Positions 19,946-37,414 of a stretch of 64,000 nucleotides of DNA are shown piece after piece. This DNA comes from Tabrizicola soli (GTDB lineage Bacteria; Pseudomonadota; Alphaproteobacteria; Rhodobacterales; Rhodobacteraceae). The DNA lies in NCBI RefSeq assembly GCF_015999335.1, contig NZ_JAEACP010000002.1, positions 1 through 64,000 of the forward strand. Reading direction: 5' to 3'. The notes beneath the pieces were generated by a model, which was not told where the DNA came from, searched no databases, and worked only from the letters and a program-made list of their open reading frames with translations. Every line of letters starts with the position of its first letter. The first letter of the stretch is position 1. A program made the translations under genes and the position numbers.

Positions 19946-21514
19946 TTATCCCAGGGTTCCGGGCCGCAGACGCTCGGCCCATGAGGTCAGGCCGACCTTC
20001 TCGGCGGCGATGGCGAGAAGCTCGCTCAGCGGGATCAGATAGAGATCCACCAGATAGAGGGCGAGCGGCAGGCCCAGCAGGATCACGGCGATGCCGGCGC
20101 CGATCCGCATCCGTTCCTGCACGGCATCGGCCCGGGTCTCCATGTAGGGGACCGTCCCGAAGGGCTTGATGTCCAGCGCCGCGACCAGTTCGGCCGGGCG
20201 CCGCACCGTCGCGTTCAGCAGCTCCAGAAGGAAGACCAGCGCCCCGGCCAGCACGACCCCCGCGCCGAAGCCCGCGGCCGCGATCAGCTTGCGGTTCGGG
20301 GCCGCAGGGCCGGACGGCGCGGCGGCATTCTCCAGCACGGTGATCCGCTGGCCGCGGGCAGTCTCCTCGATCCGGTCGCCCATCCGCGCATCGGCCAGGC
20401 TTTGCGTCGCCTGGTCATATTGCAGGCGCAGGTTGTCATAGTCGCTGCGCAACTGGCCCAGCACGATGGCATTGGCCGGGGTCGCGTCGATCGAGGCGGC
20501 GATCTCGGCCAGTTCATGCTCCAGAAGGGCCTTCTGCTCGGCCAGAAAGGCGATCTGGCCGTCGATATCGGCGACCTGCAGGTCGAAGGCGCTCATCTTG
20601 TCCGCGCCGGTGCCTCCGCCCAGCTGTTGACGGACGGCCTCCTCCAGGGCCTCGACCTGAACCTGCAGGGCGCGCACCCGCGGATTCTCGGGCGAGAACA
20701 GGACCAGCGCCGAAGCCAGTTCCTGGCGCAGCTGCTCAAGCCGCGCCTGCTCCGGGGTCAGGGTGCCCAGCGACGGCCCGATCCGCCCGGTGCGGTCATA
20801 GACCTCGGCCAGCCGCTGCCGCCGGTCGCGCAACCCGGCAAGCTCGCGGTCGACTTGCAGCAGACGCTCCTGCTGTGCGGACTGGCGGGTGCGGCGGTAT
20901 TCCAGGCTTTCGGGCAGCGCAGCACGGTTCTGCGACTCGAATTCCAGGATGCGGGCGTTCTGTTGCGCCATCTCCTCGCTCAGCCGTTTCACCTCCTGCT
21001 GGAAGAAGTCCAGCGTCCCGCCCGAGGCCGCGGTCCGCATCTCCACGTTCTGCTCGAGGATCTGGGCGACCAGGGCCTGCGTCACTTCCGCCGAATCCTC
21101 GGGGTTCGCCGCGTCGAACGAGACGGTCACCAGCCCGGTGCTCTGCTGGAACGGCGGCATCTCGATGCGGATCCGCCGGCGCATGTCCTCGACCATGACG
21201 TCGGCCGGCATGGCGGAGGACTCGGCGTAGATCCCGAAACGCTGCGCCAGATCCAGCAGGTTCTCGCGCGTGAGCAGATGCTGCTGGATCGCGCCCAGGA
21301 TCTCCTCGGCCGAGGAGCGCACGGTCGAGGCGGCGAGTTCGTCGGGGATCTGCGGGCTTTCCGCCAGAAGCCGCGCCTCGGCGCGATAGACCGGCGGCAG
21401 CGAGAAGGCCACGACGATCCCCGCCCCGGTTGCCGCGACGATGATCGCCAGGACCTGCGGCAGACGCCGGAGCAAAAGCGAAAACTGGAAGCGAATATCA
21501 AATCCCATCGTCAC
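19946..21514 (-). CDS. Polysaccharide chain-length determinant (Wzz/GNVR type)
   Basis: This inner-membrane protein of 522 residues has a first transmembrane segment at about 19-38, a long periplasmic part with extensive coiled coil (about 165-235 and 260-390), a second hydrophobic helix at about 408-432 and a third at about 470-495. The layout matches Wzz/BcsA-type co-polymerases, particularly those in exosortase-associated EPS loci. It sets polymer length and recruits the kinase encoded next. The GTG at 21514 overlaps the stop of the ATPase gene and has GAGG seven bases upstream; an ATG at 21508 is possible. Confidence 0.9.
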   Translation of the reverse strand: MTMGFDIRFQFSLLLRRLPQVLAIIVAATGAGIVVAFSLPPVYRAEARLLAESPQIPDELAASTVRSSAEEILGAIQQHLLTRENLLDLAQRFGIYAESSAMPADVMVEDMRRRIRIEMPPFQQSTGLVTVSFDAANPEDSAEVTQALVAQILEQNVEMRTAASGGTLDFFQQEVKRLSEEMAQQNARILEFESQNRAALPESLEYRRTRQSAQQERLLQVDRELAGLRDRRQRLAEVYDRTGRIGPSLGTLTPEQARLEQLRQELASALVLFSPENPRVRALQVQVEALEEAVRQQLGGGTGADKMSAFDLQVADIDGQIAFLAEQKALLEHELAEIAASIDATPANAIVLGQLRSDYDNLRLQYDQATQSLADARMGDRIEETARGQRITVLENAAAPSGPAAPNRKLIAAAGFGAGVVLAGALVFLLELLNATVRRPAELVAALDIKPFGTVPYMETRADAVQERMRIGAGIAVILLGLPLALYLVDLYLIPLSELLAIAAEKVGLTSWAERLRPGTLG

Positions 21515-22497
21515 GGATCACCCTCAATGCCTTGAAGATCTACGGCGAAGAAAGTGCCGTCGTCCAGAACCTGCCGGACATGCGCCTCGGTCACCCGCTT
21601 GCGCCCGCAGGAGAATGCATAGACCATCGCCAGGTCGCAAAGCTGGTTGACCAGCCGCGGCACCCCGCCCGTCACCTGATGCACCAGGGTCACGGCCGCC
21701 TCGTCGAAGATCCGCCGCTTCATCCCGACAATCCGCAGCCGGTGGTCGATATAGCCGCGCACGGTGGCCCGGTCCATCATGCCCAGATGAAAGCTCGACG
21801 CGACGCGCTGCGCGAACTGGCGCATGTCGGGGCGATGCACGATCTCGCGCAGCTCGGGCTGGCCGACCAGGATCAGCTGCAGAAGCACGTCCTTGCCCGA
21901 GTTGATGTTGGTGAACATCCGCAACTCCTCCAGCGCCTTGCGGCCAAGGTTCTGCGCCTCGTCGAAGATCAGCGCGACCCGGCGGCCGGCGGCATATTCG
22001 GCGATCAGCAGGTCCTGGAAGCGCGAGAAGAGGTCGACATAGGTCTCGTCGGGGCCCGCGGGCTCGCCCAGCGACAGGAGCACCCAACGCAGAAGCTCGG
22101 CCCGCGAGCCGTTCGGGTTCGACACCAGGCCGACCCGCACCCCATCGTCCAGCGAGCGCAGGAGATGGTGCAGAAGCGTCGTCTTGCCCGAGCCGACCTC
22201 GCCGGTGATCAGCGTGATCGGCGCCTGGGTCATGAGGCCGTATTCCAGCATCGCATAGGCCCGGCGGTGGGCGGGGGTCCAGAACAGCGCATCGGGGTCC
22301 GGCGCCAGCGCGAAGGGCCGCGCGGTCAGGCCGAAATGCTGGTCATAGACGCCGGGCGTCCCGGCCTTGGCGGGGGGCGGCGCGGCCGGCGGCGGGGCGG
22401 GCTGGGGATCGGGCGCGCGCGTCTCGGCCCGGAGGGCGACTTCGCCATCCCGCCCTTGCGCGCCAGAAGATTTTCTCCGCCACATCGTCACGCCCAT
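21511..22497 (-). CDS. ExeA/XrtA-associated-type AAA ATPase
   Basis: This 328-residue P-loop ATPase opens with a proline-rich linker, then YDQHFGLTARPFALAPDPDALFW, Walker A ITGEVGSGKTTLL, Walker B VALIFDEAQNLG and the sensor region LILVGQPELR. This is the layout of GspA/ExeA-like ATPases that accompany EPS genes in exosortase A loci. It probably energises or organises assembly with the Wzz and kinase. The start is uncertain: MGVTMWRR (22497) or MWRR (22485). ATPase, Wzz and kinase form one tightly coupled operon. Confidence 0.85.
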   Translation of the reverse strand: MGVTMWRRKSSGAQGRDGEVALRAETRAPDPQPAPPPAAPPPAKAGTPGVYDQHFGLTARPFALAPDPDALFWTPAHRRAYAMLEYGLMTQAPITLITGEVGSGKTTLLHHLLRSLDDGVRVGLVSNPNGSRAELLRWVLLSLGEPAGPDETYVDLFSRFQDLLIAEYAAGRRVALIFDEAQNLGRKALEELRMFTNINSGKDVLLQLILVGQPELREIVHRPDMRQFAQRVASSFHLGMMDRATVRGYIDHRLRIVGMKRRIFDEAAVTLVHQVTGGVPRLVNQLCDLAMVYAFSCGRKRVTEAHVRQVLDDGTFFAVDLQGIEGDP

Positions 22498-22770
22498 ACC
22501 GGCCCGCCACCCCGGCCCATCACCGTCCTGCGACAGGAAAACGGCGGTTATGTGTCCGCCGCGACCGCGTCCCTGCCCCATTCCGGGCGACCTTGCCCGG
22601 CAGATCGGCCGGAGTCGAGAGCGGATCCGGGCGCCCCTCGCCCCCTGGTTGCGCACCCCGGAATTCCCGCATCTTCCGGTCGTTCCACCGGGTCGGACGG
22701 GCGGGATCTCCGGTGCCGCAGACCGGAGGTCCGGGCGCGAAGACCGTCACCGCAATCGGCACCTCGGCCC

Positions 22771-23697
22771 TCACGGCGCCACCCCCGTCAGCGGGGTGGA
22801 GCGCGCCACGGTCCAGGCCACCTCCTGCATCAGGCGGGCGAGCTCCGGATCGGGCGCGGCGGCGGGGCTGCCGTCGGCCCGCAGCAGCACATGCGGCAGG
22901 CCGACCGGGCTTTTGTGATAGAGGACCGCGTAATGCACCAGGGCGACGAACTGATTGCCGAGGTCGTTCAGGTGGATCTGGTCCGAGAAGAGGCCGTTGC
23001 GGTCCCGCAGGCCGCCCACGCCGCCCCGCGCCTCTACCTCGCGCATCAGCGCGGCCAGACCCTGCCCCACCGGGATCAGATGGATGCGCGCGCCCTTCGG
23101 CAGTCGCCCCAGCGCCGGGCGCAGGACACCATCCAGCCAGAAGCGGGAGAGGTCGGCGTCGATCCGGGCCAGCCAGCCTTCGGGATCGTCCAGCTCGTGC
23201 CAGGTCTCGTAGAGGTAGATCCGCGCACCCGGCCGCGCCGCCCAGGCGGCTTCGGCAAAGGCCGCCAGAAAGCGCGGGCTGTCGTGATAGCGGATCGCAT
23301 CGCGGATCTCGACCGACTCGGTCAGCACGATCGCATCGTAATCGCCACTTGCCACCGCCGCGCGCGCGTCGCGGTAGCGGGGATGGTCATTCTCGACCTC
23401 GAAGCCGTTGACCGGGATCTCGCCCCAATGCGAGCGAAGCTGCGCACCCCAGCCGAGCTGGCTGTCGTAGCGGTGGCCCTCGCCGGCCAGTTGCGCCAGC
23501 ATCGCAGGCATGTCGCGGTTCACCAGGCTGTGGCCGATGTGGAAGACGGCCAGAGGGGCCTGGGGCGGGGCGAGCGGTTCGCCGTAAAGCGCGGCCATCG
23601 CGGCGGCATCGGGGCCGGCGGGCGCGCTGCGCCACCAGAAGGCCGCCGCCCCGGCGAATGCCGCCAGCGCCAGTGCGATGACTCCCGCCTTCCTCAT
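22771..23697 (-). CDS. Exported SGNH-type hydrolase/acyltransferase, paralogue 2
   Basis: This 308-residue protein has an N-terminal membrane anchor or signal segment (about 4-21). The catalytic Ser57 lies in VFHIGHSLVN and an Asp/His pair in LFSDQIHLNDLGNQF. It resembles the SGNH protein at 9726-10631. Its ATG overlaps the phosphopantetheinyl transferase stop (ATGA), so it is the last gene of the PKS-NRPS operon. It may release, transfer or trim the acyl product in the periplasm; that is inference from its position. Confidence 0.75.
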   Translation of the reverse strand: MRKAGVIALALAAFAGAAAFWWRSAPAGPDAAAMAALYGEPLAPPQAPLAVFHIGHSLVNRDMPAMLAQLAGEGHRYDSQLGWGAQLRSHWGEIPVNGFEVENDHPRYRDARAAVASGDYDAIVLTESVEIRDAIRYHDSPRFLAAFAEAAWAARPGARIYLYETWHELDDPEGWLARIDADLSRFWLDGVLRPALGRLPKGARIHLIPVGQGLAALMREVEARGGVGGLRDRNGLFSDQIHLNDLGNQFVALVHYAVLYHKSPVGLPHVLLRADGSPAAAPDPELARLMQEVAWTVARSTPLTGVAP

Positions 23698-24341
23698 GTC
23701 GCCACTCCGGCCAGGACCAGCCCGCCCGCCCGCAGGATCCGGCCGCGCAGCCGGTGTCCTTCCGGCAGCGGCCCGACCCCCTGCCGCAGCCGGGCGACAA
23801 AGCCGTCCTCCTCCAGCGTGACCCGGACCGCATCGAAGCCGATCAGCCGGCCGGTCAGCGGATATTGCGCCTTGTAGACCGCCTCCTTCGCCGCAAAGAC
23901 CAGCCGCACCGCGCGGCCCCGGTCGCCTTGGGGCAGCGCCGCCAGTTCCTGCGGATCGCAGATCAGCGGCCAGAGGTCGGGCTCCAGGCCCGCATCCGCC
24001 TCGACGTCCAGACCAAGCGAGGCACCCCGGCGCACCGCCGCGACCGCGACGCCTGCGGCATGGGCGATGGACCCGGCCATCCCCTCGGGCCAGCAGGGCG
24101 CGCGGTCCGGGCCGGCGGGGATCGCCGCCGCCGGATGCCCCAGCGCCGCCAGCGCCCGCCGCGCCGCCAGGCGGCCCGCCGTGAATTCGGCGACCCGCGC
24201 GGGCACCGCCCCCGCCACCGCCGCCGCCTCGCCCGGCAACAGCTCTCCGGCCCCGATCCCGACCAGCGCGACCGCAACGCCCGGCGGAAACAGCCGCGCC
24301 AGCGCAGCCTCGGCCGCCGCCTGCCGGAGCACGGCTGTCAC
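23694..24341 (-). CDS. 4'-phosphopantetheinyl transferase (Sfp/EntD type)
   Basis: This 215-residue enzyme transfers phosphopantetheine from CoA to carrier-domain serines. The motifs are GSIAHA, the magnesium-binding GLDVEAD, and FAAKEAVYKAQYPLTG, in the usual order and spacing. Its start overlaps the NRPS stop and its stop overlaps the SGNH gene start, so it is made with the assembly line. It should activate the NRPS (Ser1430) and PKS (Ser1769) carrier domains. The length matches EntD-like members. Confidence 0.92.
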   Translation of the reverse strand: MTAVLRQAAAEAALARLFPPGVAVALVGIGAGELLPGEAAAVAGAVPARVAEFTAGRLAARRALAALGHPAAAIPAGPDRAPCWPEGMAGSIAHAAGVAVAAVRRGASLGLDVEADAGLEPDLWPLICDPQELAALPQGDRGRAVRLVFAAKEAVYKAQYPLTGRLIGFDAVRVTLEEDGFVARLRQGVGPLPEGHRLRGRILRAGGLVLAGVAT

Positions 24342-27300
24342 TGCGCCTGCGCCCGCTCGCGCACCGCGCGCATGGCGCGGCGGCGGGCCATGGCATCGCC
24401 ACGGTCGGGACCCTCGGCCGGGGGGGGCGCCGCAGCACGCGCGGCTGTCACGCCGCCGCCCAGATGCGCGGCCAGGGCCGAGAGGACCGGGAAGCGGAAG
24501 ATGTCGGTGATCGCCAGCGTCTCGGCCTTCAACTTCGCGCGCAGCTCGCGGTGGGCCTGCACGGCCAGCAGCGAATGGCCGCCAAGGCTGAAGAAATTGT
24601 CCGACCGGCCGACGCTGGGGACGCCCAGAACCCGGCTCCAGACCGCCGCGATCTCGGCCTCCAGATCATCCGCCGGGGGGGTCTCGGCCGCCGCCGCCGC
24701 CACCCGCGCCGAGGGCGCAGGCAGCGCCTTGCGGTCGATCTTGCCGTTCGGCGTCAGCGGAAAGGCATCCAGCGCCACGACATGCGCGGGCACCATCACC
24801 TCGGGCAGATGCGCCGCCAGACGGGCGCGCAGCGCCGCCTCGTCCACCGGGCCGTCGTGGGTGACATAGGCCACCAGCCGCACGTCGCCTGGCTGATCCT
24901 CACGCGGCAAGGCCACCGCCTGCCGGATGCCCGGCGCGGCCTCCAGCGCCGCCTCGATCTCGCTCAGCTCGATCCGGTGGCCGCGGATCTTGACCTGATG
25001 GTCGGCCCGGCCCAGAAAGTCGAGCCGCCCGTCCGGCCGCCGCCGCACCAGATCGCCGGTGCGATACATCCGGCCCCGCCCTGCGAAAGGATCGGGAAGG
25101 AAGCGTTCGGCGGTCAGGTCCTCGCGGCCGAAATAGCCCGCCGCGACCCCCTCGCCGCCGATCCAGAGTTCCCCCTCCGTCCCGTCCGGCAAGGGCCGGG
25201 CTTCGGCGTCCAGCACGTAAAGCGCGGTATTGGCGATCGGCTGGCCGACGTTCACCGTGCCCTCCTCGCCCGTCGTCGCCTCGACCGAGGACCAGATCGT
25301 CGTCTCGGTCGGGCCGTACATGTTCAGGACCGGCCCGCCGATCACCCCGGCCAGATCCGCCGCCAGACGCCCCGGCAGGGCCTCGCCGCCGACCAGCATC
25401 CGCCGCAGCCCCGACAGCGCGATGCGCGCGCCCTCGTCCTCGGCCAGCACCCGTGCCAGAGAGGGGGTGCATTGCAGATGCGTGACGCCATGCGCGCGGA
25501 TCAGCCCGGCAAGCGAACCGTCTTCCGCCTGCCCGTTCGCCCGCGCCCGCACCTCGGCCAGATGCGTGAGGCCGGACATCACCTGCGCATAGGGGATGCC
25601 ATAGTCGATCAGGCAGGCGATCTCGTCGATGCCCAGCGCCTCGACTTCGGCCACCCGGGCCAGCGCGTCGCCGACCGTGCCGAACAGACCCGAGTCCTCG
25701 AAATAACGCTGGAAGGCGAAGTCCAGGATCGCCTCCAGCTCCTCCGGCTCCAGCGCGCCCAGGTCGATCTGCGCCGGGTTCGCCACGCCCTGCGGTTTCT
25801 TGAAGGCGGGGAAGGCCCAGGCATATTGCCGGATCAGCGCCGCAGCCGAACGCAGGTAATCCTTCATCGGCTCGCGCGCCACCTCGCGCGCCGTCTCGCG
25901 GTCGGCGGCAAGGAAAGTATGCAGCATCAGCGTGACCTTGAAGGCCGAGGGGTCGTGGCCCGCCTCGGCCAGGGCCGCGCGGTAGATCGCCACCTTCTCG
26001 CCGACCTCGGCCAGCGACTGGCCCAGAAGATGCGTCAGCACATGCGCCCCAAGCCGGCCCGCGTCGCGCCAGGTCTCGGGGTTGCCGGCGGTCGTGATCC
26101 AGATCGGCAGCTCTTTCGAGACCGGCCGGGGCTGCGTCACCACGGCAAAGGGGGTGCCGTCGGCCTTGGGGAACTCCACCGCCTCGCCGCGCCACAGCCG
26201 GCGCAGCACCATGATCGCGTCCAGCATCGCCTGCCGGTTGGCGGGCGGCGCGTTTTCCGGGCGCAGGACGAAATCGTCCGGTTGCCAGCCCGAGGCGATG
26301 GCAAGCCCCGCCTTCCCGTGCGTCAGGTTGTCGATCACCGCCCATTCCTCGGCGATCCGCGCCGGATGGTGCAGCGGCGCGACGCAGGACCCGGCGCGGA
26401 CGGCGGTGTTCCGCGTCACCGCCGCCACCGCCGCGCCGGTGACCGAGGGGTTGGGATAGGGGCCGCCGAAGGCGTGGAAGTGGCGCTCGGGCGTCCATAC
26501 CGCCGCGAAGCCGTTGGCATCGGCGAATTTCGCGCCTTCCAGCAAGAGGTCATATTTGCTTGGCCCGGCGCTGTCGTCGTTGCCCCAGTAGAACAGGCTG
26601 AACTCCATCCTCCGGCCGGAACGGACCGCCCCGCCGCCCGAGGGGCTGAGCCGTGCCGCATCATCGGCTACCACCACCGAGAAGCCGCGCGCGAGGGTCC
26701 AGAACAGCTCCAGCACCGAAATGTCGAAGGACATCGAGGTGACGGCGAGCCAGGTGCCGGGGTCGGTGCCTATCACCTCGTCCATGCCGGCGAAGAAGTT
26801 CAGCACGTTGCGGTGGGTGACCATCACCCCCTTCGGCCGCCCGGTGGAACCCGAGGTATAGATCAGATAGGCCAGATCCTCCGGCCCCGGCCCGTCTTCC
26901 GGCGGCGTCTCGGGCGCGTTCGCCAGCCGCGTGTCGGCGTCCAGCACGAGCCGCTCCGGCCCCGCAGGCAGAAGGTCGGCCACCGCCGCCTCGGTCACGA
27001 TCACCGGACAGCCGGAATCCTCGGCGTAAAGCGCCAGCCTGTCGGATGGATAGGCGGGGTCCATCGGCACATAGGCACCCCCGGCCATCTGGATCCCCAG
27101 GGCCCCGGCCACCATCTCCGCCCCCCGGCGGCAGGCAAGGCCGACCGGCGTGCCGCGCCCCACGCCCATCCCGCGCAGGACATGGGCGATGCGGGCGGCG
27201 CGTTCGGCCAGGGCGGCATAGGTCAGGCGCTGGTTCCCGGCGATCACCGCGGGGTGGTCGGGACGGGCCGCCGCCATGGCCAGGACCGCGGCCGGGATCG

Positions 27301-28861
27301 TGCCCGCGCGGTCATAGTCCCGCGCCGTGGCCGCCAGCGCGCCCTGCAGCCGCGCCTCCTCCTCGGGCGTCAGGGCGGTCAGCCGGTCGAGGTCGGCCCC
27401 CGCCGCCATCGCCTGCACTAGGCGCGCGATGCGCCCGGCCAGCGCCTCCGCCGCCCCGGCCGGAAGCCGCGCCGCATCGTACCAGAGCGCGCCACCGCCC
27501 AGCGCCAGCGTCACCGCCGATCCTTCGACCGGCGCGTCGCCCTCCGACAGCGCCAGCGGCGGCGGGGTCAGCGCCGCAAGGCCGGGCTCGCGCAGTGCCA
27601 GGTCGGCGGCAAGGCCCCCCGCCGCCCGCGCGAGGGCAAGGTCCGCCTCGACCGCCGCCAGCGCCGCGTCGAGCGGTCCGGAGGCCGCCAGCCGCAGCGG
27701 AACCCAGGGCAGGACATAGCCCGGCGCGGGGGAGGGACCGGCGGAAAAGGCGATGTCGCCCGCCACCCGCCCCACCGCCCGCAGCGCCGCCAGCGCCACC
27801 CGCGCCGCTTCCGCCCCGCCGGGGGCGACCGGCAGCGACCGCCAGTCGGCGGAAGCCTCGCCCGGCCCGCCCAGCGCCACCGGATCGGCCCCGAGCAGCA
27901 GGGGCCGGAACCGCGCCTCGGCCTCGGCCACCCGGCCCAGCGTCGCCGTCAGCTGTGCGGCCTCTTCGGCAGAGGGCGTGTCCAGATGCGCCACGCCCAG
28001 CGATTTCGGGCAGACCGGGGCGCCATCCATCCCGGAAAGCCCGGCGAGACGCAGCGCGCCGGTGCCGCAGGCCACCACCAGCCCGGATTCATCCGCCGCC
28101 AGTACCGCCCCCGGCAGACCAAAGCCCGGCACCACCTCGGCCCGGCCCACCGCCAGCACCCGCCCCCCGGCCAGGATCTTCGGCACCGCCAGCGGATTGC
28201 GATAGCCGCCATGGTCCAGCCCATGCACCAGCCGCGCCACCGCCTCGGCCGGCCGGGTGAAATCCAGCCGCCCCGCCGCCGCCGGGCGATCCGCCCGCCG
28301 ATAGAGATGACGCGGCCCCGCGCCCTGCGGCTGGCGCGGCCGGCCGCCGTTCTCCAGTGCGGCGATCACCTGCGGAAAGCTCTCCAGCGCCGCGGCAAAG
28401 CAGCGGGTGTTCAGGGTCAGGGCGGTCTCGTCCGGGGCAATCGCGATGCTGCGCGCGACCAGGACCTCGCCCTCGTCGATGTCCTGGGTCATCAGGTGCC
28501 AGGTGACGGCGTGCCCGGTCTCGCCGTTCAGGATTGCCCAGACCGGGGCATTCAGCCCCGCATAGCCCGGCAGCGGCCCGTCGTGGAAGTTGACCCCGCC
28601 CATCCGCGCCCGCGCCAGCACCGGCTGCGGCACCAGCGACAGGTTCGCGATCGACAGCACCCAGTCCACGGCCAGATCGGCCAGCCGCGCCGCCAGCCCC
28701 ACCCCCGGCGCCACGACGCGCAGGCCGCGCGACGCCGCCCAGTCGGCCACCCTTTGCTCACGCGTGACGACGGCGGCAAGCGCATGTCCACGCGCGAGCC
28801 AGAGGTTGCCGCATTCCGCGGTCAGGCTTTCATTGCCGATCAGGATTGCCGAAAGCGTCAT
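24338..28861 (-). CDS. NRPS: formyltransferase - C-remnant - adenylation (with inserted luciferase-like monooxygenase) - PCP
   Basis: This 1507-residue multidomain enzyme starts with a formyltransferase-like domain (1 to about 280) with Asn91 and His93 in NFHDGPLPGY and Asp129 in DIDEG. Residues about 375-500 resemble the C-terminal lobe of a condensation domain but have no HHxxxDG. The adenylation domain begins about 520 (A3 LIYTSGSTGRPKG, 667-678; A4 SFDISVLELF, 711-720). It is then interrupted at about 752-1108 by a flavin-dependent luciferase-like monooxygenase (FYWGNDDSAGPSKYDLLLEG, VWTPERHFHAFGG, THGKAGLAIASGW). It resumes with QCTPSLARVL, MYGPTETTIWSS, YRTGDLVR and A10 NGKIDRK (Lys1374). 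The carrier domain has GGHS (Ser1430). The specificity residues read D-I-L-Q-L-G-M-I-W-K, close to the glycine code. It follows the PKS by 13 bases with GGAGTTGG upstream. Confidence 0.9.
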   Translation of the reverse strand: MTLSAILIGNESLTAECGNLWLARGHALAAVVTREQRVADWAASRGLRVVAPGVGLAARLADLAVDWVLSIANLSLVPQPVLARARMGGVNFHDGPLPGYAGLNAPVWAILNGETGHAVTWHLMTQDIDEGEVLVARSIAIAPDETALTLNTRCFAAALESFPQVIAALENGGRPRQPQGAGPRHLYRRADRPAAAGRLDFTRPAEAVARLVHGLDHGGYRNPLAVPKILAGGRVLAVGRAEVVPGFGLPGAVLAADESGLVVACGTGALRLAGLSGMDGAPVCPKSLGVAHLDTPSAEEAAQLTATLGRVAEAEARFRPLLLGADPVALGGPGEASADWRSLPVAPGGAEAARVALAALRAVGRVAGDIAFSAGPSPAPGYVLPWVPLRLAASGPLDAALAAVEADLALARAAGGLAADLALREPGLAALTPPPLALSEGDAPVEGSAVTLALGGGALWYDAARLPAGAAEALAGRIARLVQAMAAGADLDRLTALTPEEEARLQGALAATARDYDRAGTIPAAVLAMAAARPDHPAVIAGNQRLTYAALAERAARIAHVLRGMGVGRGTPVGLACRRGAEMVAGALGIQMAGGAYVPMDPAYPSDRLALYAEDSGCPVIVTEAAVADLLPAGPERLVLDADTRLANAPETPPEDGPGPEDLAYLIYTSGSTGRPKGVMVTHRNVLNFFAGMDEVIGTDPGTWLAVTSMSFDISVLELFWTLARGFSVVVADDAARLSPSGGGAVRSGRRMEFSLFYWGNDDSAGPSKYDLLLEGAKFADANGFAAVWTPERHFHAFGGPYPNPSVTGAAVAAVTRNTAVRAGSCVAPLHHPARIAEEWAVIDNLTHGKAGLAIASGWQPDDFVLRPENAPPANRQAMLDAIMVLRRLWRGEAVEFPKADGTPFAVVTQPRPVSKELPIWITTAGNPETWRDAGRLGAHVLTHLLGQSLAEVGEKVAIYRAALAEAGHDPSAFKVTLMLHTFLAADRETAREVAREPMKDYLRSAAALIRQYAWAFPAFKKPQGVANPAQIDLGALEPEELEAILDFAFQRYFEDSGLFGTVGDALARVAEVEALGIDEIACLIDYGIPYAQVMSGLTHLAEVRARANGQAEDGSLAGLIRAHGVTHLQCTPSLARVLAEDEGARIALSGLRRMLVGGEALPGRLAADLAGVIGGPVLNMYGPTETTIWSSVEATTGEEGTVNVGQPIANTALYVLDAEARPLPDGTEGELWIGGEGVAAGYFGREDLTAERFLPDPFAGRGRMYRTGDLVRRRPDGRLDFLGRADHQVKIRGHRIELSEIEAALEAAPGIRQAVALPREDQPGDVRLVAYVTHDGPVDEAALRARLAAHLPEVMVPAHVVALDAFPLTPNGKIDRKALPAPSARVAAAAAETPPADDLEAEIAAVWSRVLGVPSVGRSDNFFSLGGHSLLAVQAHRELRAKLKAETLAITDIFRFPVLSALAAHLGGGVTAARAAAPPPAEGPDRGDAMARRRAMRAVRERAQAQ

Positions 28862-28874
28862 GGTCCAACTCCAG

Positions 28875-31800
28875 TCATTCAGCGGCTAGCTTGTGGCCGC
28901 CTTCAATCGGCCGTGTGGCCTCGGCCCGGGCCAGGGCCTCGCGCATCCGGTTGGCCAACACCCGGACATTCGGCTCCAGCACCATGGAATCGTGGTCGCC
29001 CGGCACCTCGACCACCTCGAGGCCGGGGGCAAAGCGGGTCCACTGGTTGTCGGCGAAGACATATTCCTTCGCAGTGCTGATCCAGTTCCCGCCGCTGACC
29101 TTCCAGCGCCGGTCGAGAGGCGGGCGATAGAGGACGACGCGGCCATCGGCCCAGGGCTCCAGCCGGTAGACGCCCACCGCGCGGCGGAAGGCGGCCTCGA
29201 TCGCCGCATTGTGGAACGAGGGCACCGTCGGGTCGGGCTCGCCCGCCGCCAGCGCCTTCTGCGCGCGTTGCCATTCCCTGCGCCTACGCAGCCAGTCCAG
29301 CAGGAAGCGCGGCCCGTGCTGGCGCAGTTCGGCCAGCTTGATCGCGGCCCGGTCGGCCCGGCTGGGCACCGGCGGCACCGGCATCGGCGTGTCCAGGAGC
29401 GCGACCAGCGCCACCTCCTCGCCCGCCGCACGCAGCTGGCGGCCCATCTCCCAGGCGGTCAGTCCGCCGCCGGAGAAGCCGCCCAGCAGATAGGGTCCCG
29501 AGGGCTGGATCTGCCGGAGTTCGGCGATGCAGTCGGCCGCCGCCGCCTCCAGCGTCTCATGCGGGGCGGTGTCGCCGAACAGCCCGCGCGCCTGCAGCCC
29601 GTAGAACGGCCGCTCCTTGCCCAGAAGATGCGCCAGGTGCCGCAGGTTCAGCACATTGCCGAACATGCCCGCGACCAGGAAGAACGGCGTGCGCGATCCC
29701 GCCTCGCCGCCGTGCATGGCGACCAGATGGGTGAAGTCCGGCCCGGCGGGGTCGGCCTTTGCCGCCGGATCCGCCGGCTTGTCCGCCTCGGGGCCGATGC
29801 GTTCCGAGATCAGCGCCGCGACGCGGGCAATGGTCGGCGCCTCGAACAGGACCGAGATCGGGAAGTCCAGCTGCCACTCCTTGCGGATCCTGGCAAACAG
29901 CCGCACCGCGATCAGCGAATGGCCCCCCAGCGCGAAGAAGTCGTCCTCGACCCCCACCTCCTCGACGCCCAGCAGCCCCGACCAGAATCCGGCCAGGGTG
30001 CGCTCGACCTCGGTCCGGGGAGCGACATAGGCGGTTTCCAGCGTCGGCCGGGCAAAGCCAGGCCCCTCGTCGCCGGGACCCTGGTCCCCGGCCTCGGCCT
30101 GGCGCACCAGCGCCGGCAGGTCCAGCGACGAGACCAGCACCTGCGGCGCATCCAGCGCCAGGGCGCGCAGGAAGGCCTTGGCCCCCTCGGCCGGGCGGAT
30201 GCCGTCCTCCAGCGCCTGCTTCAGCCGGGCCTCGGCGGGCGAGAGCGCGCGCGCCTCCTCCTCATCCGCGACCACCTCGCCGGGGGTGGCGGGGGCGGGC
30301 CGGGCCAGAACCTCGGCCGCCGCGACCGCGCGGAAGCTGATCCCGCGGACCTCGACCAGCACCCGGCCGGCCGGGTCGGTCAGCGTCACGTCGAAGGCGG
30401 CGCTCCCCGCGCCGGGCGCGCCCTGCAGCCGCACCCAGCTGCGGATCTCGGCGGGCAAGGGCGCGAAGACCTGTACCGTGCCCGAGGTCACCGGGACCCA
30501 GATCTCGCCCTTCGCCACCTCGGGCAGCAGCGCCAGCCCCCAGCCGGTGCCGATGTCGTAAAGTGCGGGATGCAGCGCCGTGGTCGCGGTGTCGCCCGTC
30601 GCATGGGCGGCAAGCGCCAGCGTCGCCAGCCCCTCGCCCCGCCCCAGCGCCGTCTGCCGCAGCACCTGCCAGCGCGGCCCGAAGGCCAGCCGGTCCTCCT
30701 GCGCGCTTGGCAGGGCGCCGCCGTCCCGCGCCTGCCGCCGGTCGGGGCAGCGCGCGGCGATGGCGGCCAGATCCAGCCTCTCCGGCGAGACCGCCGCCAA
30801 CGGCGCAAGCTCGGCCTCGACCGCCAGCGCCCAGCCGGCGGTCTCGCGCGTCCGGGCCTCCAGCCGCCAGGAGCCCCTGGCGCGCGTCAGCGTCACGCGC
30901 AGGTCGCGCGGGGCGTCGCCCTCCAGCCGGATCGGGCGGAACACGGTCAGCCCCGACAGGGTGAAGGCCGGGCCCTGCCCCAACGCGGACAGCGCCTCGG
31001 CCGCGATCTCGGGCCAGGCGGCGCCCGGCAGGATCGCGGTGCCGTCCTTCAGCCGGTGGTCGTCCATCACCCATTGCGCATTGGACAGCGTGGTGGAGAA
31101 CCGGCTCCCCTCGTCCTCGCGCGCCATGCGTTGCAGGATGGGCAGACCGGGCAAAGGCGCCTCGCTGGCCCGGCCCTCGCTGCGCCGGGCGGCGGCGTCG
31201 GCGGCCATGCCGATCCCCGACCAGATCCCCCAGTCGATCGCCGTCACCTTCGTCCGCCCGCCCGAGCGCGACCTGGCATAGGCGTTCAGATATTCGTTCG
31301 CCGCCACGTAATCGGCCTGCCCCGCCGGGGCGATCACGGTGGAGGTCGAGGAGAACAGCACCAGCCGCGCGATGCTGCCATCGGGCACGAGGCTGTCCAG
31401 CAGCCTCGTGCCATGCACCTTCGGCGACAGCACCGCCTCGGCCGCGCCGGGATCCTTGCCCAGAAGCGGCGCATCGTCGACCGTGCCCGCAGCATGGACG
31501 ACCCCGTGGATCGGCCCCAGTTCGGCCCACACCCGGTCCAGCGCCGCACGCATCTCCTCGGGGTTGCAGACATCGGCCGCCAGCGGCAGGACCGTCCCCA
31601 GCCGCGACAGACGCTCCAGCACCCCCGCGCGCTGGCTTTCCGGGCCCGGCAGGCTGCGCCCGATCAGCGCGACCTTCGCCCCATGCTCGCGCATCAGCCG
31701 TTCGGCCAGCGTGATCCCGATCCCGCCGAACCCGCCGACCAGCACCCAGACCGAGCCTTCGGGCACCTCGGCCCGCCCGGCCAGCGGCGCGGGGGCGAGA

Positions 31801-34800
31801 CGCTGCTCGTAGCGCCGCGCGCCGCGCAGCGCCGCGACCGCGTTCGCCGGGGTGGCAAGCATCTCCTCCAGCACCAGTCCCAGCGTCTCGGACGGGAGGG
31901 GGCGGCGGCCCTCGGGCAGCGTCAGATCGACCAGCGCGGCGGTCAGCCCCGGCAGCTCGCGCGGCATCACCCGCACCGGGCCCGCGACCGCGGCCTTTTC
32001 CGGCCAGGACAGCGCCTCGTCGCGGACCTGCGCCGCGCCCGAGGTGAAGACCGTCAGATGCGGCAGGGGGGAAAGCCCGATCTCGCCCATCGCCTGGCCA
32101 AGGAAGAACAGGCTCCAGAAGCCCTGTTCCAGGTTGCGGTGAAAGAAACTCGACCCCGGCCGGAAGCTCTCGGACTCGGTGACCAGCCAGAAATGCGCGA
32201 TCCGCTGCGGGGCAAGGCCGCGCTGCACCAGATCGGCAAGCAATGCGTCATAGCCCTCGCGGCCGTGTTCGGGGGCGAGGGTATAGGTGTCCTCGCCGGT
32301 CCGGGCAAAGGCATCGCCGGCATGGGCGGTGATCACCCGATGCCCGCCCCTGCGCAGACGCTGCACCGCCGCCCGCGCCAGCCCCGCCTCGTCGGAAAAG
32401 ACCAGCCAGGTGAGCGGCGGGCCAAGCTCGGCCTCGACATCGACCGGACAATCGGCCGGCACCGGGCGCCAGGCCAGGCGATAGCCGAAGGCCTCGACGC
32501 TGCCGTGCCGTTCCGCCACGGTCTCGGCCTCGGGCAGTTGGGCGGGCTTGCCCGGCTCGACGAAATAGCGCGCGCGCTGGAAGGGATAGGTCGGCAGCGG
32601 CACGCGCCGGCGCCGCGCCTCTCCCCACAGCTGCGACCAGTCCGGCGCGGCCCCCGCCGCCCAGAGACGGCCCAGGGTGGCGATGAAATGGCGGTCGTCC
32701 GAGACCCTGTCGTCGGGATGGCGCAGGCTGGCTGGGACCGGCTGGCCGCCCATCACCCCGTTGGCCTGCGCCAGCGTGGCAAGCGCCCGGCCGGGGCCGA
32801 CCTCCAGATAGACCCGGTCCGCCTTTTCGCGCAGGGTCCGGATCCCGTCGGCAAAGCGCACCGTCCCGCGCAGATGCGCGACCCAGTAGTCGGGACTCGT
32901 CGCCTCGGCATCGGTCAGGACCTTGCCCGAGCGGTTCGAGATGATGGGGATGCGGGGCGAGGAAAGCACCATGCCCCGCAGATGCGCCCGGAACCGCTCC
33001 AGGATCGGCTCCAGCATCTTCGAATGCGCGGCGATGTCGATGGCGATGCGCGTGGTCTCGATCTCGGCCGCCTTCAGCCGCGCCGCCAGATCCTCCAGCG
33101 CCGCATCCGGGCCGGAAACCACCGTCAGCTCCGGCGCGTTGATCGAGGCGATGTCCAGATCGCCCAGCCAGGGCATGAGGTCCGCCTCGGACAGCGGCAC
33201 CGACAGCATGCCCCCCGCAGGCACCGTGTCGAAAAGCCGGCCGCGCAGGTGCACGAGGCCGATCACCCCCTCCAGCGTCATCACGCCGGCGATATGGGCG
33301 GCGGCATTCTCGCCCATCGAATGGCCGATCAGCACCGAGGGCCGCACCCCCCAGCTTTCCCACAGCCGCGCCAGCGCGATCTCGACGATCAGGATCAGCG
33401 GCAGCTGCAACGAGGGCCGGCGCAATGCCTCGGCCGCGGCGGCCTCCTCGCCCGGCCCGGGCAGCCAGAGCGCGCGGATGTCGCGGTCGGTCAACCCGGC
33501 CAGCACGGCGAGGCCGCGGTCCATCCATTCGGCGAAGACCGGCTCGGTCTCGTAGAGGTCGCGCGCCATGTTCGGGTATTGCGCGCCGCCGCCGGGGAAC
33601 ATGAAGACCACGTCCGGCGCCTCGCCCACCCGGCGCTGGCTGAAGACCCGGCGCGGATCGCCCGTTTCCAGCTGCGCCGCTGCCTCCTCATGGCTTGCGG
33701 CCACCAGCACCCGGCGATGCTCGAAGGCGCGGCGACCCTCCTTCAGGGTAAAGGCCACGTCGGCAAGGGGCTGCTCGGGATGGGCGCGCAGATGCGCCGC
33801 CAGCCGGGCCGAGGCCTCGTTCAGCGCGGCCGGAGAGCGGGCCGAAAGCGCGAGCAGCTGGAAGGGCCAGTCGCTCTCGCCGCTAGCGGCCGCTTCGGGT
33901 GCCTCCTCCAGCACCACATGCGCATTGGTGCCGCCCACTCCCAGCGAGTTCACCCCCGCGCGGCGCGGCCCCTTGCGGCGCGGCCAGTCCGCCAGACGGT
34001 CGTTGACCCGGAACGGGCTGGCCTCGAAGTCGATCGCGGGGTTCGGCACCTCGAAGTTCAGGCTGGGCGGCATCTGCCCGTGCTGCAGCGCCAGCGTGGT
34101 CTTGATCAGGCTGGCCACACCCGCGGCGGTATCCAGGTGGCCGATGTTGGTCTTGACGCTGCCGATCCGGGCGAAATCCCGGTCTTCCGTCGTGCGGCGG
34201 AAGGCCTGGGTCAGCGCCGCGACCTCGATCGGATCGCCCAGATAGGTGCCGGTGCCATGGCACTCGACATAGTCGATCGTGTCGGCAGGCACATCCGCCA
34301 CCGCCAGAGCCTCGGCCACGCAGGCGGCCTGGCCCTCGACCGAGGGCGCCAGATAACCCGCCTTGGCCGCGCCGTCGTTGTTGACCGCGCTGCCCCGGAT
34401 CACCGCCCGGATGTGGTCGCCATCCGCCAGCGCATCCGCAAGCCGCCGCAGCACCACCGTCCCCGCGCCCGAGCCGAAGACCGTGCCCTGCCCGCGCCGG
34501 TCGAAGGCATGGCAGGCCCCGTCCGGCGACAGGACCTCGCCCTCCTTGTAGAGATAGCCGCGCTTCTGCGGCAGCTCGATCGTCACGCCGCCCGCCAGCG
34601 CCATGTCGCATTCGCCGCCCAAGAGCGATTGCACCGCCGTATGGACCGCCACCAGCGAGGTGGAACAGGCGGTCTGGATCGACAGCGAGGGCCCCTTCAG
34701 GTCAAGGACATGGCTGACCCGGGTGGACAGGAAGTCCTTGTCATTGCCGGTATGGCGCAGAAGGAACATCCCCGTGCTCTCCACCAGGCCGGGGTTCGAG

Positions 34801-35222
34801 CAGAGGTTGAAGTAGAAATAGCTGCCCATCCCGCAGCCGGCAAAGACGCCGATCCGGCCCCGGAAAGCCTCGGGCGGGTGTCCGGCATCCTCCAGCGCCT
34901 CCCAGGCCACTTCCAGGAACTGCCGGTGCTGCGGATCCAGGATCGCGGCTTCCTTTGGCGAGAAACCGAAGAACTCGGCGTCGAAATGGTCGAATCCCTC
35001 CAGCGGAGCGGCGAAGGGGACATAGGACGGGTTCTTCAGCAGGGCCGGGCTTTCCCCGGCGGCGGTCAGTTCCTCCGGCGTCAGCCGGCGCACGGCAGAC
35101 CGGCCCTCGCGCAGCATCTCCCAGTACTGCCCGATGTCCGCCGCCCCCGGCAGGTGCGCAGCCATTCCCACGATGGCGATCAGGTTCTCGCCAGCGCCAC
35201 CCTCGTTTCCGACCCATTCCAT
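28875..35222 (-). CDS. Type I polyketide synthase: KS-AT-KR-DH-ACP-TE
   Basis: This 2115-residue single-module synthase has, in order: KS (about 12-440; Cys186 in TACSTSL, His322 in CHGTGT, His362 in NIGHLD); AT (about 535-830; GHSMGE with Ser635, and AAHS at 731-734 where extender specificity is usually read, not a clean malonyl or methylmalonyl signature). The KR (about 1155-1345) has GGFGGIG, the VDD motif suggesting a B-type reductase, Tyr1305 and Asn1309. A dehydratase-like hotdog domain (about 1376-1635) has His1389, GTAILPG and Asp1556. The carrier domain has GGHSL (Ser1769), and the thioesterase (about 1845-2100) has GGFSGGG (Ser1917) and GDHDSM (His2077). The DH lies after the KR, not before it. 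The start is the ATG of MEWVGNEGG. It is the first gene of the operon. Confidence 0.92.
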   Translation of the reverse strand: MEWVGNEGGAGENLIAIVGMAAHLPGAADIGQYWEMLREGRSAVRRLTPEELTAAGESPALLKNPSYVPFAAPLEGFDHFDAEFFGFSPKEAAILDPQHRQFLEVAWEALEDAGHPPEAFRGRIGVFAGCGMGSYFYFNLCSNPGLVESTGMFLLRHTGNDKDFLSTRVSHVLDLKGPSLSIQTACSTSLVAVHTAVQSLLGGECDMALAGGVTIELPQKRGYLYKEGEVLSPDGACHAFDRRGQGTVFGSGAGTVVLRRLADALADGDHIRAVIRGSAVNNDGAAKAGYLAPSVEGQAACVAEALAVADVPADTIDYVECHGTGTYLGDPIEVAALTQAFRRTTEDRDFARIGSVKTNIGHLDTAAGVASLIKTTLALQHGQMPPSLNFEVPNPAIDFEASPFRVNDRLADWPRRKGPRRAGVNSLGVGGTNAHVVLEEAPEAAASGESDWPFQLLALSARSPAALNEASARLAAHLRAHPEQPLADVAFTLKEGRRAFEHRRVLVAASHEEAAAQLETGDPRRVFSQRRVGEAPDVVFMFPGGGAQYPNMARDLYETEPVFAEWMDRGLAVLAGLTDRDIRALWLPGPGEEAAAAEALRRPSLQLPLILIVEIALARLWESWGVRPSVLIGHSMGENAAAHIAGVMTLEGVIGLVHLRGRLFDTVPAGGMLSVPLSEADLMPWLGDLDIASINAPELTVVSGPDAALEDLAARLKAAEIETTRIAIDIAAHSKMLEPILERFRAHLRGMVLSSPRIPIISNRSGKVLTDAEATSPDYWVAHLRGTVRFADGIRTLREKADRVYLEVGPGRALATLAQANGVMGGQPVPASLRHPDDRVSDDRHFIATLGRLWAAGAAPDWSQLWGEARRRRVPLPTYPFQRARYFVEPGKPAQLPEAETVAERHGSVEAFGYRLAWRPVPADCPVDVEAELGPPLTWLVFSDEAGLARAAVQRLRRGGHRVITAHAGDAFARTGEDTYTLAPEHGREGYDALLADLVQRGLAPQRIAHFWLVTESESFRPGSSFFHRNLEQGFWSLFFLGQAMGEIGLSPLPHLTVFTSGAAQVRDEALSWPEKAAVAGPVRVMPRELPGLTAALVDLTLPEGRRPLPSETLGLVLEEMLATPANAVAALRGARRYEQRLAPAPLAGRAEVPEGSVWVLVGGFGGIGITLAERLMREHGAKVALIGRSLPGPESQRAGVLERLSRLGTVLPLAADVCNPEEMRAALDRVWAELGPIHGVVHAAGTVDDAPLLGKDPGAAEAVLSPKVHGTRLLDSLVPDGSIARLVLFSSTSTVIAPAGQADYVAANEYLNAYARSRSGGRTKVTAIDWGIWSGIGMAADAAARRSEGRASEAPLPGLPILQRMAREDEGSRFSTTLSNAQWVMDDHRLKDGTAILPGAAWPEIAAEALSALGQGPAFTLSGLTVFRPIRLEGDAPRDLRVTLTRARGSWRLEARTRETAGWALAVEAELAPLAAVSPERLDLAAIAARCPDRRQARDGGALPSAQEDRLAFGPRWQVLRQTALGRGEGLATLALAAHATGDTATTALHPALYDIGTGWGLALLPEVAKGEIWVPVTSGTVQVFAPLPAEIRSWVRLQGAPGAGSAAFDVTLTDPAGRVLVEVRGISFRAVAAAEVLARPAPATPGEVVADEEEARALSPAEARLKQALEDGIRPAEGAKAFLRALALDAPQVLVSSLDLPALVRQAEAGDQGPGDEGPGFARPTLETAYVAPRTEVERTLAGFWSGLLGVEEVGVEDDFFALGGHSLIAVRLFARIRKEWQLDFPISVLFEAPTIARVAALISERIGPEADKPADPAAKADPAGPDFTHLVAMHGGEAGSRTPFFLVAGMFGNVLNLRHLAHLLGKERPFYGLQARGLFGDTAPHETLEAAAADCIAELRQIQPSGPYLLGGFSGGGLTAWEMGRQLRAAGEEVALVALLDTPMPVPPVPSRADRAAIKLAELRQHGPRFLLDWLRRRREWQRAQKALAAGEPDPTVPSFHNAAIEAAFRRAVGVYRLEPWADGRVVLYRPPLDRRWKVSGGNWISTAKEYVFADNQWTRFAPGLEVVEVPGDHDSMVLEPNVRVLANRMREALARAEATRPIEGGHKLAAE

Positions 35223-35585
35223 ACTCAAGACCGCCCGACGCAAACAGGGACTATTGAAAATTCTTGTCCTGCAAAGCCTTGCACCCTTCGCCCCCTTCCT
35301 TCCCCGCCATCGGGCGGCGCTTGCCGGGAGAATGTGACTGGCGCCAACCTCGCGCAGGTTCTGTAAGGCCTACCCTAAGTCCTGCGATGCCTCCGGGGCA
35401 AGCCGGGCAGGGCCGCCCATCGGGAATCCCCACCCCGGAAGGAAACAAAAAGGGCCAAAGGATCGCATTTGGCCCCGAGTTCCGAAAAATCTCCATTCAC
35501 CCTTTGCGACGCTTGCACGAATCCGTATGGTTCCCACCATCCAATCGCGTGCCCGGCACGACTCACCGACGAAGGATTAGGCAAG
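35223..35585. other. Divergent intergenic region between PKS and exporter genes, 363 bp
   Basis: It holds no gene and must contain the promoters of the PKS-NRPS operon (minus) and the export operon (plus). A strong hairpin with a U-tract on the minus strand lies at 35447-35475, in the leader region of the PKS. No -35/-10 pair was convincing on either strand. Confidence 0.5.
35447..35475 (-). terminator. Intrinsic-terminator-like hairpin in the PKS operon leader
   Basis: GGGCCAAA (35452-35459) pairs perfectly with TTTGGCCC (35468-35475) around an eight-base loop. Read on the minus strand the hairpin is followed directly by five T (35447-35451) and then GTTT. It points toward the PKS start about 225 bases downstream. 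With a promoter further upstream it would act as a leader attenuator; otherwise it stops antisense transcripts from the exporter gene. The structure is seen; the role is inferred. Confidence 0.5.
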
Positions 35586-36179
35586 ATGAGATTTGTGCTG
35601 GCGCTGATTGCGGCCCTTCTGGTCATCCCGTTCTTGGCCGACCCCGGCCTGGCCCAGGATTATCGCCTGCGCCCCGGCGACACCGTCCAGGTCGAGGTGC
35701 TTGAGGACACCACCCTCAACCGCTCTGCCATGGTCCTGCCGGACGGCCAGATCTCGCTGCCGCTGACCGGCTCGGTCCGCGCCGCAGGGCGTACGCTGGC
35801 GCAGATCCAGGCCGATCTCGCCACCCGCCTTGCCCCGAACTTCGCCGAACCGCCCACCGTCTTCGTGACCCTCGCCAGCCTGGCCGAGCGGGTAACCGCC
35901 CCGGCGCGCACCATCGACATCTTCATCCTTGGTGCCGCGAACACGCCCGGCCGCGTCGAAGTCCCCCCGGGCACCACGGTCCTTCAGGCCATTGCCGCCG
36001 CCGGCGGGCTCTCGCCCTTCGCCGCGACCAAGCGGCTGCAACTGCGCCGCATCGACAAGTCCGGCAGCGAAAATATCTACCGGATCGACTTCGACGCCAT
36101 CGAGCGCGGCGCCTCGAACACCACCCGCCTCGTCGATGGCGACGTGATCGTCGTCCCGCAACGCCGCCTGTTCGAGTAA
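35586..36179 (+). CDS. Polysaccharide export protein, short Wza-like (Poly_export + SLBB)
   Basis: This 197-residue outer-membrane-associated exporter component has a signal peptide (about 1-23, ending GLAQ) and the Poly_export N-terminal domain DYRLRPGDTVQVEVLED and LTGSVRAAGRTLAQIQADL. One SLBB domain (about 118-165: IFILGAANTPGRVEVPPGT, LQAIAAAGGLSPFA) and the closing DGDVIVVPQRR follow. It is shorter than Escherichia coli Wza (about 380 residues) and lacks its C-terminal amphipathic helix, as is common in alphaproteobacterial EPS loci. It lies nine bases before the outer-membrane beta-barrel gene. Confidence 0.9.
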   Translation: MRFVLALIAALLVIPFLADPGLAQDYRLRPGDTVQVEVLEDTTLNRSAMVLPDGQISLPLTGSVRAAGRTLAQIQADLATRLAPNFAEPPTVFVTLASLAERVTAPARTIDIFILGAANTPGRVEVPPGTTVLQAIAAAGGLSPFAATKRLQLRRIDKSGSENIYRIDFDAIERGASNTTRLVDGDVIVVPQRRLFE

Positions 36180-36187
36180 GCGCCCCC

Positions 36188-37414
36188 ATGCAACGAAGAT
36201 TTCCGCTTGGCGGCGCAATCGGTCTTGGCGCCGCCCTGATGGCATCGACCGCCACCGCACAGGATGCGGAGGGCGGATTGCGGCTGGTCTTCGGGATCGA
36301 GGAACGCCTTGAATACGGCCGCAATCTTGCGCTTGCGGTCCCGGCCGAAGGCTCGACCTCAAGTGCCGCGACCACGCTCAGCTTCGGCCTCTACTCCTCC
36401 ACGCCCCTCGACCGGCTGGAGTTCACCGCCTCGGCCGCGCTGCTGGTCGAGAATGCGCCGGACACCGACGGGACCGTGACCGAATTCGCCCGCCCCCGGC
36501 TGGGCTTCTCCTACACGCGCGAGGTTCCGAACGCGGTTTTCGGCATCGACCTCAGCTATATCCGCGATGACGTCGACAGCTTGGCAGAGGATCTGGATGA
36601 TGCCGATGCCACCGGAACCGAGACCGACTATGGCGTCGCCCTGCGATTCGAGACCGGCCGCACCACCCCGGCCAGCTTCTTCGTCACGGCGGCCCATGAG
36701 ATTACCGAATACGAGGACACCACAGATCCCGACCTGATCGACACGACGACGACCAGCCTGGAATCCGGCACCCGCCTGCGCTTCTCCGAGGTGCTGACCG
36801 GCACCGTCTCGCTGGAGTTTTCCCGCGAGGACGAGGACGGCGCGCCCGACACGACCGACACGCTGACCGCCGCTTTCGGGCTGGAGCACGCGCTGGCGAA
36901 CGGCAGCGCCTCGCTGGATTTCTCGCACAGCGCCGAGGACGGCGGCGAGGACCGCACCACGATCACCCTCGGCCGCGCGCTGGAGCTGCCCGCCGGCACG
37001 CTCGCGGCGCGGCTCGGGCTCAGCCGGTCCGACCTGGGCGGCACCGATCTCGTCGGCGGGCTCGACTGGAGCCAGCGGCTTCCGGACGGCGGGGTGACGG
37101 TCAGCCTGGAACGGTCCGCCAGCTATGATTCGGACATTGGCGAGACGACAGTCGAGACCGCCCTTTCCGTCGAGTGGACGCATGAGATCAACGCGCTTTC
37201 CTCTCTCGCCGCCGACGCCTCCTGGGCGCTCAGCGATGCCGCCTCCGAGCGGATCGAGGAAACCGAGCTTGGCGTCACCTACCGCACCGCGCTGACCCGG
37301 GACTGGCAGCTTGCCGGCGGCCTGCGCTACAGCTGGCGCGATGATGCCGACGGGCATGCCGAATCGCCGATGGTCTTCGTTTCGCTCGGCCGCAGCTTCA
37401 CCCTGCGCCCCTGA
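36188..37414 (+). CDS. Outer-membrane beta-barrel protein, EPS-locus type
   Basis: This 408-residue protein has a signal peptide (about 1-24, ending STATAQ). The remainder alternates polar and hydrophobic residues in short strands, as in an outer-membrane barrel, with acidic loops and a final strand rich in aromatics (VFVSLGRSFTLRP). Such proteins follow Wza-like exporters in exosortase-associated EPS loci and probably help the polymer cross the outer membrane. No enzymatic motif is seen. Confidence 0.78.
   Translation: MQRRFPLGGAIGLGAALMASTATAQDAEGGLRLVFGIEERLEYGRNLALAVPAEGSTSSAATTLSFGLYSSTPLDRLEFTASAALLVENAPDTDGTVTEFARPRLGFSYTREVPNAVFGIDLSYIRDDVDSLAEDLDDADATGTETDYGVALRFETGRTTPASFFVTAAHEITEYEDTTDPDLIDTTTTSLESGTRLRFSEVLTGTVSLEFSREDEDGAPDTTDTLTAAFGLEHALANGSASLDFSHSAEDGGEDRTTITLGRALELPAGTLAARLGLSRSDLGGTDLVGGLDWSQRLPDGGVTVSLERSASYDSDIGETTVETALSVEWTHEINALSSLAADASWALSDAASERIEETELGVTYRTALTRDWQLAGGLRYSWRDDADGHAESPMVFVSLGRSFTLRP

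Follow-up and report, generated by a model that had tools for sequence, protein, structure and literature searches.

A PKS-NRPS block in exopolysaccharide loci of Rhodobacteraceae: a probable assembly line for polymer decoration

A PKS-NRPS block tied to exopolysaccharide loci

The window analysed here is a stretch of 64,000 nucleotides of Tabrizicola soli (contig NZ_JAEACP010000002.1, positions 1 to 64,000), and a Pfam scan of its proteins placed a block of four genes mid-window with polysaccharide genes on both sides. The genes, all on the minus strand, encode a type I polyketide synthase (PKS; 28875-35222, 2115 aa), a nonribosomal peptide synthetase (NRPS)-like protein (24338-28861, 1507 aa), an Sfp-type 4'-phosphopantetheinyl transferase (PPTase; 23694-24341, PF17837 and PF01648) and an SGNH protein (22771-23697), and are joined by one 13-base gap and two 4-base overlaps. 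Domains, coordinates and junctions confirmed what a sequence-only reading of this DNA had described as a PKS-NRPS-PPTase-SGNH operon inside an exopolysaccharide (EPS) locus. We put at about 60% the probability that the block is a dedicated polymer assembly line, using glycine and malonate to supply a formamido-acyl part of the polysaccharide. A place in the machinery for coat synthesis is more likely than a stray antibiotic cluster, because related lines occupy the polysaccharide clusters of many related genera.

The NCBIfam profile TIGR04020, which matches the monooxygenase domain of the NRPS-like protein, scored above cut-off in 105 of 295 genomes of the same family (about one genome per genus). 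Eighty loci were taken from 78 of these 105 genomes, mostly by score, with matches at contig ends skipped and most of the lowest scorers omitted. Flanking EPS families were present in most of them, at least one in 75 loci and at least two in 70, against 0 of 20 control stretches, which were hand-picked, at round positions, from 20 of the genomes. Some of the EPS queries in this count were derived from the block loci themselves; with queries from the window only, the numbers were 75 and 67. In the strictest count, which kept window queries and Pfam-named families and excluded three families with a weak Pfam name or none (4472-6148, 492-2828 and 36188-37414), they were 70 and 61, and the controls stayed at 0 of 20 in both cases. 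A second set of 80 named loci, motif-picked, partly from the same genomes and hence not an independent count, had at least one EPS family in 71 and at least two in 50, the nine with none lying on stretches shorter than 16 kb. Looking for the block in EPS loci of relatives was the check that the sequence-only reading had proposed, and its outcome favours the tie.

In 73 of the 80 loci a gene for a family 2 glycosyltransferase (GT2) lay between the PKS and NRPS genes and shared their strand, and a PPTase was seen in 67. Named relatives include Rhodobacter, Tabrizicola, Gemmobacter, Salipiger, Roseovarius and Hydrogenophaga, the last with the block in a polysaccharide context by our own mapping. 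Plasmids of Ruegeria, Paracoccus, Parasedimentitalea, Shinella and Aminobacter carry the block amid annotated polysaccharide genes (44 plasmid records matched and 12 were inspected, 2 of these being without annotation); in Shinella and Aminobacter the PKS has the opposite orientation and is not separated from the NRPS by a GT2. On the Paracoccus liaowanqingii plasmid (L202:1-1605) the EPS locus that holds the block also has an additional NRPS gene, next to WecG, and on that of Ruegeria conchae (L237:152-1804) a VPLPA-CTERM exosortase XrtD stands a few genes away. A profile of the formyltransferase-remnant part of the NRPS-like protein matched 10 of 385 genomes of the class at E 1e-60, five from the same family (that of the window included) and five from others, two of which are matched over the formyltransferase part alone. 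In one genome of another family (G604) the NRPS-PKS pair stands beside an epimerase, a GT4, a DegT, a UDP-glucose dehydrogenase and a Wzy_C protein. Counterparts in Rhizobium jaguaris and Bradyrhizobium, which reach about 35% similarity in the formyltransferase part, lie within NRPS clusters, and a relative occurs in a metagenome-assembled genome of Verrucomicrobiales, where a binning error is possible.

Co-inheritance with EPS and partner genes

Among 32 genomes of the genus, the NRPS and the EPS ATPase were both present in 18 and both absent from 10, with 4 discordant (Fisher p 4e-5; our co-inheritance tests count genera as independent, so that significance is overstated). In G310, which is among the 18, the block is divided between two contigs. 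Among the discordant genomes, G307 has the block close to a contig start, the contig of G301 stops within the PKS, and that of G304 stops too early to judge. The fourth, G313, holds beside the same EPS genes a different hybrid of 3374 aa, with the order adenylation (A)-peptidyl carrier (PCP)-ketosynthase (KS)-acyltransferase (AT)-acyl carrier (ACP)-aminotransferase-condensation (C)-A-PCP-thioesterase (TE). This hybrid (L240:4432-14556 with L227) occupies the place of the block in an EPS locus of the same type in the same genus. The earlier proposal that the product is tied to the polymer gains from the EPS-locus association and from this co-occurrence, while cases outside EPS loci, given below, count against it and the covalent link is one that we infer.

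The SGNH protein (22771-23697) belongs to the SGNH hydrolase superfamily, having the Ser, Gly, Asn and His blocks and the SGNH fold, and judged by eye its N-terminal hydrophobic stretch would make it exported or membrane-anchored. It was found at E 1e-40 in 54 of the 295 genomes, one of them (G023) matched at paralogue level (E 5e-48), and all 54 have the NRPS domain (52 above cut-off, 2 as split matches). In several genomes (e.g. G175, G026 and G037) it lies on another contig or far from the NRPS, and the tie between the two is therefore more than neighbourhood. The sequence-only reading had suggested that this protein might move an acyl or aminoacyl decoration; its link to the assembly line held up, and it may either transfer the unit or trim it.

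Strong GT2 matches occurred in 98 of the 295 genomes, 95 of which have the NRPS domain; counting all matches at E 1e-70, the domain was present in 100 of 107 (2 as split matches). The division into strong (at least 478 bits) and weak (at most 290 bits) was set after the gap between them had been seen. In the window, the plus-strand GT2 at 6209-7198 is a diverged counterpart of the glycosyltransferase that stands between PKS and NRPS in relatives: it falls in the weak class (profile E 4e-81), and it was matched by 61 of 61 GT2 proteins of relatives at a median identity of 38%.

Predicted chemistry of the assembly line

In the NRPS-like protein (Pfam and TIGR04020) an N-terminal formyltransferase fold (FT; aa 1-294, 27980-28861), with the catalytic residues N91, H93 and D129, precedes the A and PCP domains (the latter at 24461-24655, PP-binding), as in formylating initiation modules. 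Between FT and A lies a putative C-lobe remnant of a condensation domain (deltaC; aa about 298-520, 27302-27970), which has no Pfam match and was assigned by eye from its C-domain-like ending and not by fold, since the structure search with the FT model was largely confined to residues 1-295. None of 81 sequences has the HHxxxD motif of a working C domain. As a whole, the NRPS matched LgrA best among PDB entries, and FT was closest to ArnA in a structure search. Within the A domain sits a MupA/Atu3671-type luciferase-like monooxygenase of the flavin mononucleotide kind (MOX; 25547-26602, TIGR04020 at 476 bits), which matches the PuwE structure (PDB 6ket, E 2e-100) and completes the order FT-deltaC-A(MOX)-PCP. 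It is inserted between A4 and A5 in all 80 loci, which were selected for TIGR04020, and the A4-to-A5 distance is 463-476 residues in every one. The A-domain code, DILQLGMIW, is of the glycine type, with D, I, L, Q, G and W found in 80 of 80 loci, M in 79 and I in 78, and position 299 variable. The DhbF module (5u89), which we take to be glycine-specific, aligns similarly at the later code positions. The Pfam scan of the NRPS found no TE, and the protein thus has neither the working upstream C domain nor the TE after the module that would mark an amide-forming terminal module.

The PKS has the Pfam domain order KS-AT-(probable structural half of the ketoreductase)-ketoreductase (KR)-dehydratase (DH)-ACP-TE, and no enoylreductase (ER) was matched in that scan. 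The catalytic residues of KS, AT, KR, ACP and TE are conserved in 75-78 of 79 aligned sequences.

PPTases of the Sfp family charge carrier domains, and the one encoded here would charge those of both NRPS and PKS. The NRPS is predicted from its code to activate glycine, which FT would formylate on the carrier, and the inserted monooxygenase is predicted, from domain position and precedent, to hydroxylate the glycine alpha carbon. The PKS would then add one malonate-type unit, followed by reduction and dehydration, and its TE may release or transfer the resulting C4 formamido-acyl unit. The co-occurrence described above suggests that the GT2 and the SGNH protein place the unit on the polysaccharide, or adjust it there.

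Each of these parts has known counterparts. The closest comparison for the glycine module is offered by myxothiazol and melithiazol synthesis, where the modules in question are presumably MtaG and MelG. Both there and here the monooxygenase stands between A4 and A5 of a glycine A domain, and in those pathways the glycyl residue is alpha-hydroxylated (PMC10204066); unlike them, the module here seemingly starts the line, a formyltransferase replaces the working C domain and the NRPS is without a TE. A survey (PMC12283262) gives DILQLGMIWK as the code of all four of its glycine A-MOX domains, against DILQLGMIW here. LgrA of linear gramicidin (F-A-T) likewise has a formyltransferase ahead of its A and carrier domains, whereas here FT is nearest ArnA, a C-lobe remnant and a monooxygenase are added, the code is for glycine and a PKS is the next partner. 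Puwainaphycin PuwE shares the luciferase-like domain, for which an acyl chain hydroxylated at position 2 is the predicted product (PMC4219810); it differs in that its domain lies between PKS and NRPS modules and that of the window inside an A domain.

For surface polymers, the sequence-only reading knew of no characterised EPS system that combines these genes. A literature search, limited to open-access papers, agreed in naming none; type I PKS genes of capsule loci (wcbR/rkpA) are nonetheless a precedent (PMC3908369). RkpA and WcbR, compared by locus setting and not by sequence, share with our system a type I PKS within a surface-polysaccharide locus, and differ in that NRPS, PPTase, GT2, SGNH protein and a glycine starter are present here.

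D-alanylation of teichoic acids by the Dlt system employs an adenylation enzyme, a carrier protein and an SGNH-type protein. The same trio would act on a surface polymer here, and the whole may resemble a far more elaborate form of carrier-protein-based decoration, with a two-module assembly line in place of the single aminoacyl transfer of Dlt. Among the window proteins scanned between 492 and 51034, none belonged to the MBOAT (DltB) family.

Evidence on the other side and rival explanations

Several observations weigh against a role in polysaccharide decoration. Co-location is by itself no proof of joint function, and both the product and its polymer linkage are deduced from genes. Two loci lie outside EPS surroundings, L055 (TerC and cobalamin genes) and L102 (glutamine synthetase and lipoyl synthase), as does the pair in a genome of another family (G662; beside ZnuA, an ABC transporter, a thiamine pyrophosphate enzyme and a glutathione S-transferase). 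Locus L041, judged from its open reading frames (ORFs), is another hybrid cluster, and the context of L107 is not assignable as EPS or non-EPS. An SGNH protein was found in 31 of the 80 loci, the other 49 having no match above 80 bits within 20 kb, and 7 of the 107 GT2 genomes (3 strong, 4 weak) have no NRPS domain. On the chemical side, the survey cited above (PMC12283262) locates inserted domains of this kind at A8-A9 and not at A4-A5, and an alpha-hydroxylated formylglycyl unit could be prone to break into formamide and glyoxyl.

In all, 10 of the 80 loci had fewer than two EPS families, L055, L102, L041 and L107 among them. Of the other six, L058 carries Wzy_C and a GT2, L111 carries a GT4 match and a DegT sugar aminotransferase, and in L054, L057, L077 and L090 the sole EPS-family match is a relative of window protein 4472-6148. 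A tree built from 156 NRPS sequences (quick method, midpoint root) placed L055, L102 and L111 together in a clade within the EPS-linked sequences, and departure from the EPS locus therefore looks derived.

The three strong-GT2 genomes without the domain each hold some form of the block. That of G155 is interrupted by a contig end, and that of G097 (L250:6190-16512) is a decayed EPS-locus block which has lost the FT motif and the carrier serine and has its PKS in two open frames. In G085 (L251:4198-13831) an EPS-locus block lacks MOX and DH and has an intact glycine code, FT motif and carrier. Single case though it is, G085 points to MOX as a tailoring step and to a line able to run on formylglycine.

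The main rival is a free small molecule (a signal, siderophore or defence compound) whose genes are merely co-located or co-regulated with those for EPS. Such molecules are a common output of NRPS-PKS clusters, the PKS carries a TE, and L055, L102 and G662 lie outside EPS loci. We nevertheless consider it unlikely: EPS linkage in 70-75 of 80 loci against none of the controls, a GT2 inside the block in 73, the nested position of the L055/L102/L111 clade and a four-gene block without a transporter or receptor gene all count against it.

A bolder version of the polymer-decoration model, which we hold to be rather doubtful, is that EPS loci hold NRPS-PKS lines as interchangeable cassettes dedicated to the polymer. 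Here the alpha-hydroxylation by MOX and the dehydration by DH would turn a glycine and malonate unit into a polymer-borne masked 4-oxocrotonate or hydroxypyrrolinone, a reactive group and possible matrix cross-linker. This version fits the different hybrid at the locus of G313 and the G085 block without MOX and DH.

Less probable still is a variant of the polymer-decoration model in which N-formyl-hydroxyglycine is split at the monooxygenase step and the PKS receives glyoxyl, not formylglycine, as its starter. The A4-A5 monooxygenase of myxothiazol and melithiazol does lead to carbinolamide cleavage with a glyoxyl thioester remaining, but solanimycin B retains its hydroxyglycine (PMC10204066); G085, moreover, keeps the machinery for what is presumably a workable formylglycine route. 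A product that anchors or primes the polymer as a lipid-like or acyl group, in the style of the RkpA/WcbR capsule PKSs, is improbable, for a glycine-coded loading module with a formyltransferase and an ER-less PKS module predict a short polar acid and not a lipid, even if wcb and rkp capsule loci contain type I PKS genes (PMC3908369).

The surrounding polysaccharide locus

Directly beside the block lie minus-strand genes for a ParA/BY-kinase-like ATPase (19125-19982), a Wzz/GNVR chain-length protein (19946-21514) and the EPS-locus AAA ATPase (21511-22656, PF13401). On the other side, 246 bases separate the PKS start codon from a divergent plus-strand ORF for a Wza-type export protein (35469-36179, PF02563), which is followed on the same strand by a putative outer-membrane beta-barrel or porin (36188-37414, a weak BBP2_2 match under cut-off). 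Scans for promoters and terminators (22600-22800 and 35180-35520) gave 1 terminator-like site against 0.6 expected. The Pfam scan further found a sugar transferase (3049, plus), GT2 genes (7081, plus; 10655, minus), a flippase (8157, minus), WecG (13787, plus), an epimerase, a deacetylase and a GT4. A minus-strand ORF (17854-19173) considered as Wzy was dropped, having no Pfam match; the plus-strand ORF at 17914-19140 is a GT4. The protein at 4472-6148, polytopic and without a Pfam match, has relatives directly upstream of the PKS in many loci and, judged by eye, is probably a Wzy polymerase. A phage origin of the block was also considered and dropped, as a phage collection gave no match.

A second SGNH-like protein (9726-10658, minus) is a paralogue of the one in the block (overlapping matches, 26-38% identity), and a domain of its kind opens the long SGNH-hyp492 proteins of relatives. 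The protein at 492-2828 has no Pfam match and an RTX-like end, by eye; in the window it and 9726-10658 are separate genes, and in relatives such as L094 and L053 long proteins combine an SGNH-like start with the 492-2828 match.

Implications

Glycine A-MOX domains, FT initiation modules, PKSs in capsule loci and SGNH proteins on surface glycans are all known; new, as far as the open-access literature search goes, are their combination and the breadth of its association with EPS loci in Rhodobacteraceae. PKS, GT2, NRPS, PPTase and SGNH protein make a clean set of partners for testing, with a natural monooxygenase-less variant available. If the block does decorate the polymer, nonribosomal glycine-polyketide chemistry would join the list of natural glycan substituents, and many clusters of Rhodobacteraceae, marine roseobacters included, that are counted as secondary-metabolite potential would belong to polysaccharide synthesis. 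Should the lines also prove to be exchangeable cassettes, many "orphan" NRPS-PKS clusters of this family would be glycan-tailoring systems.

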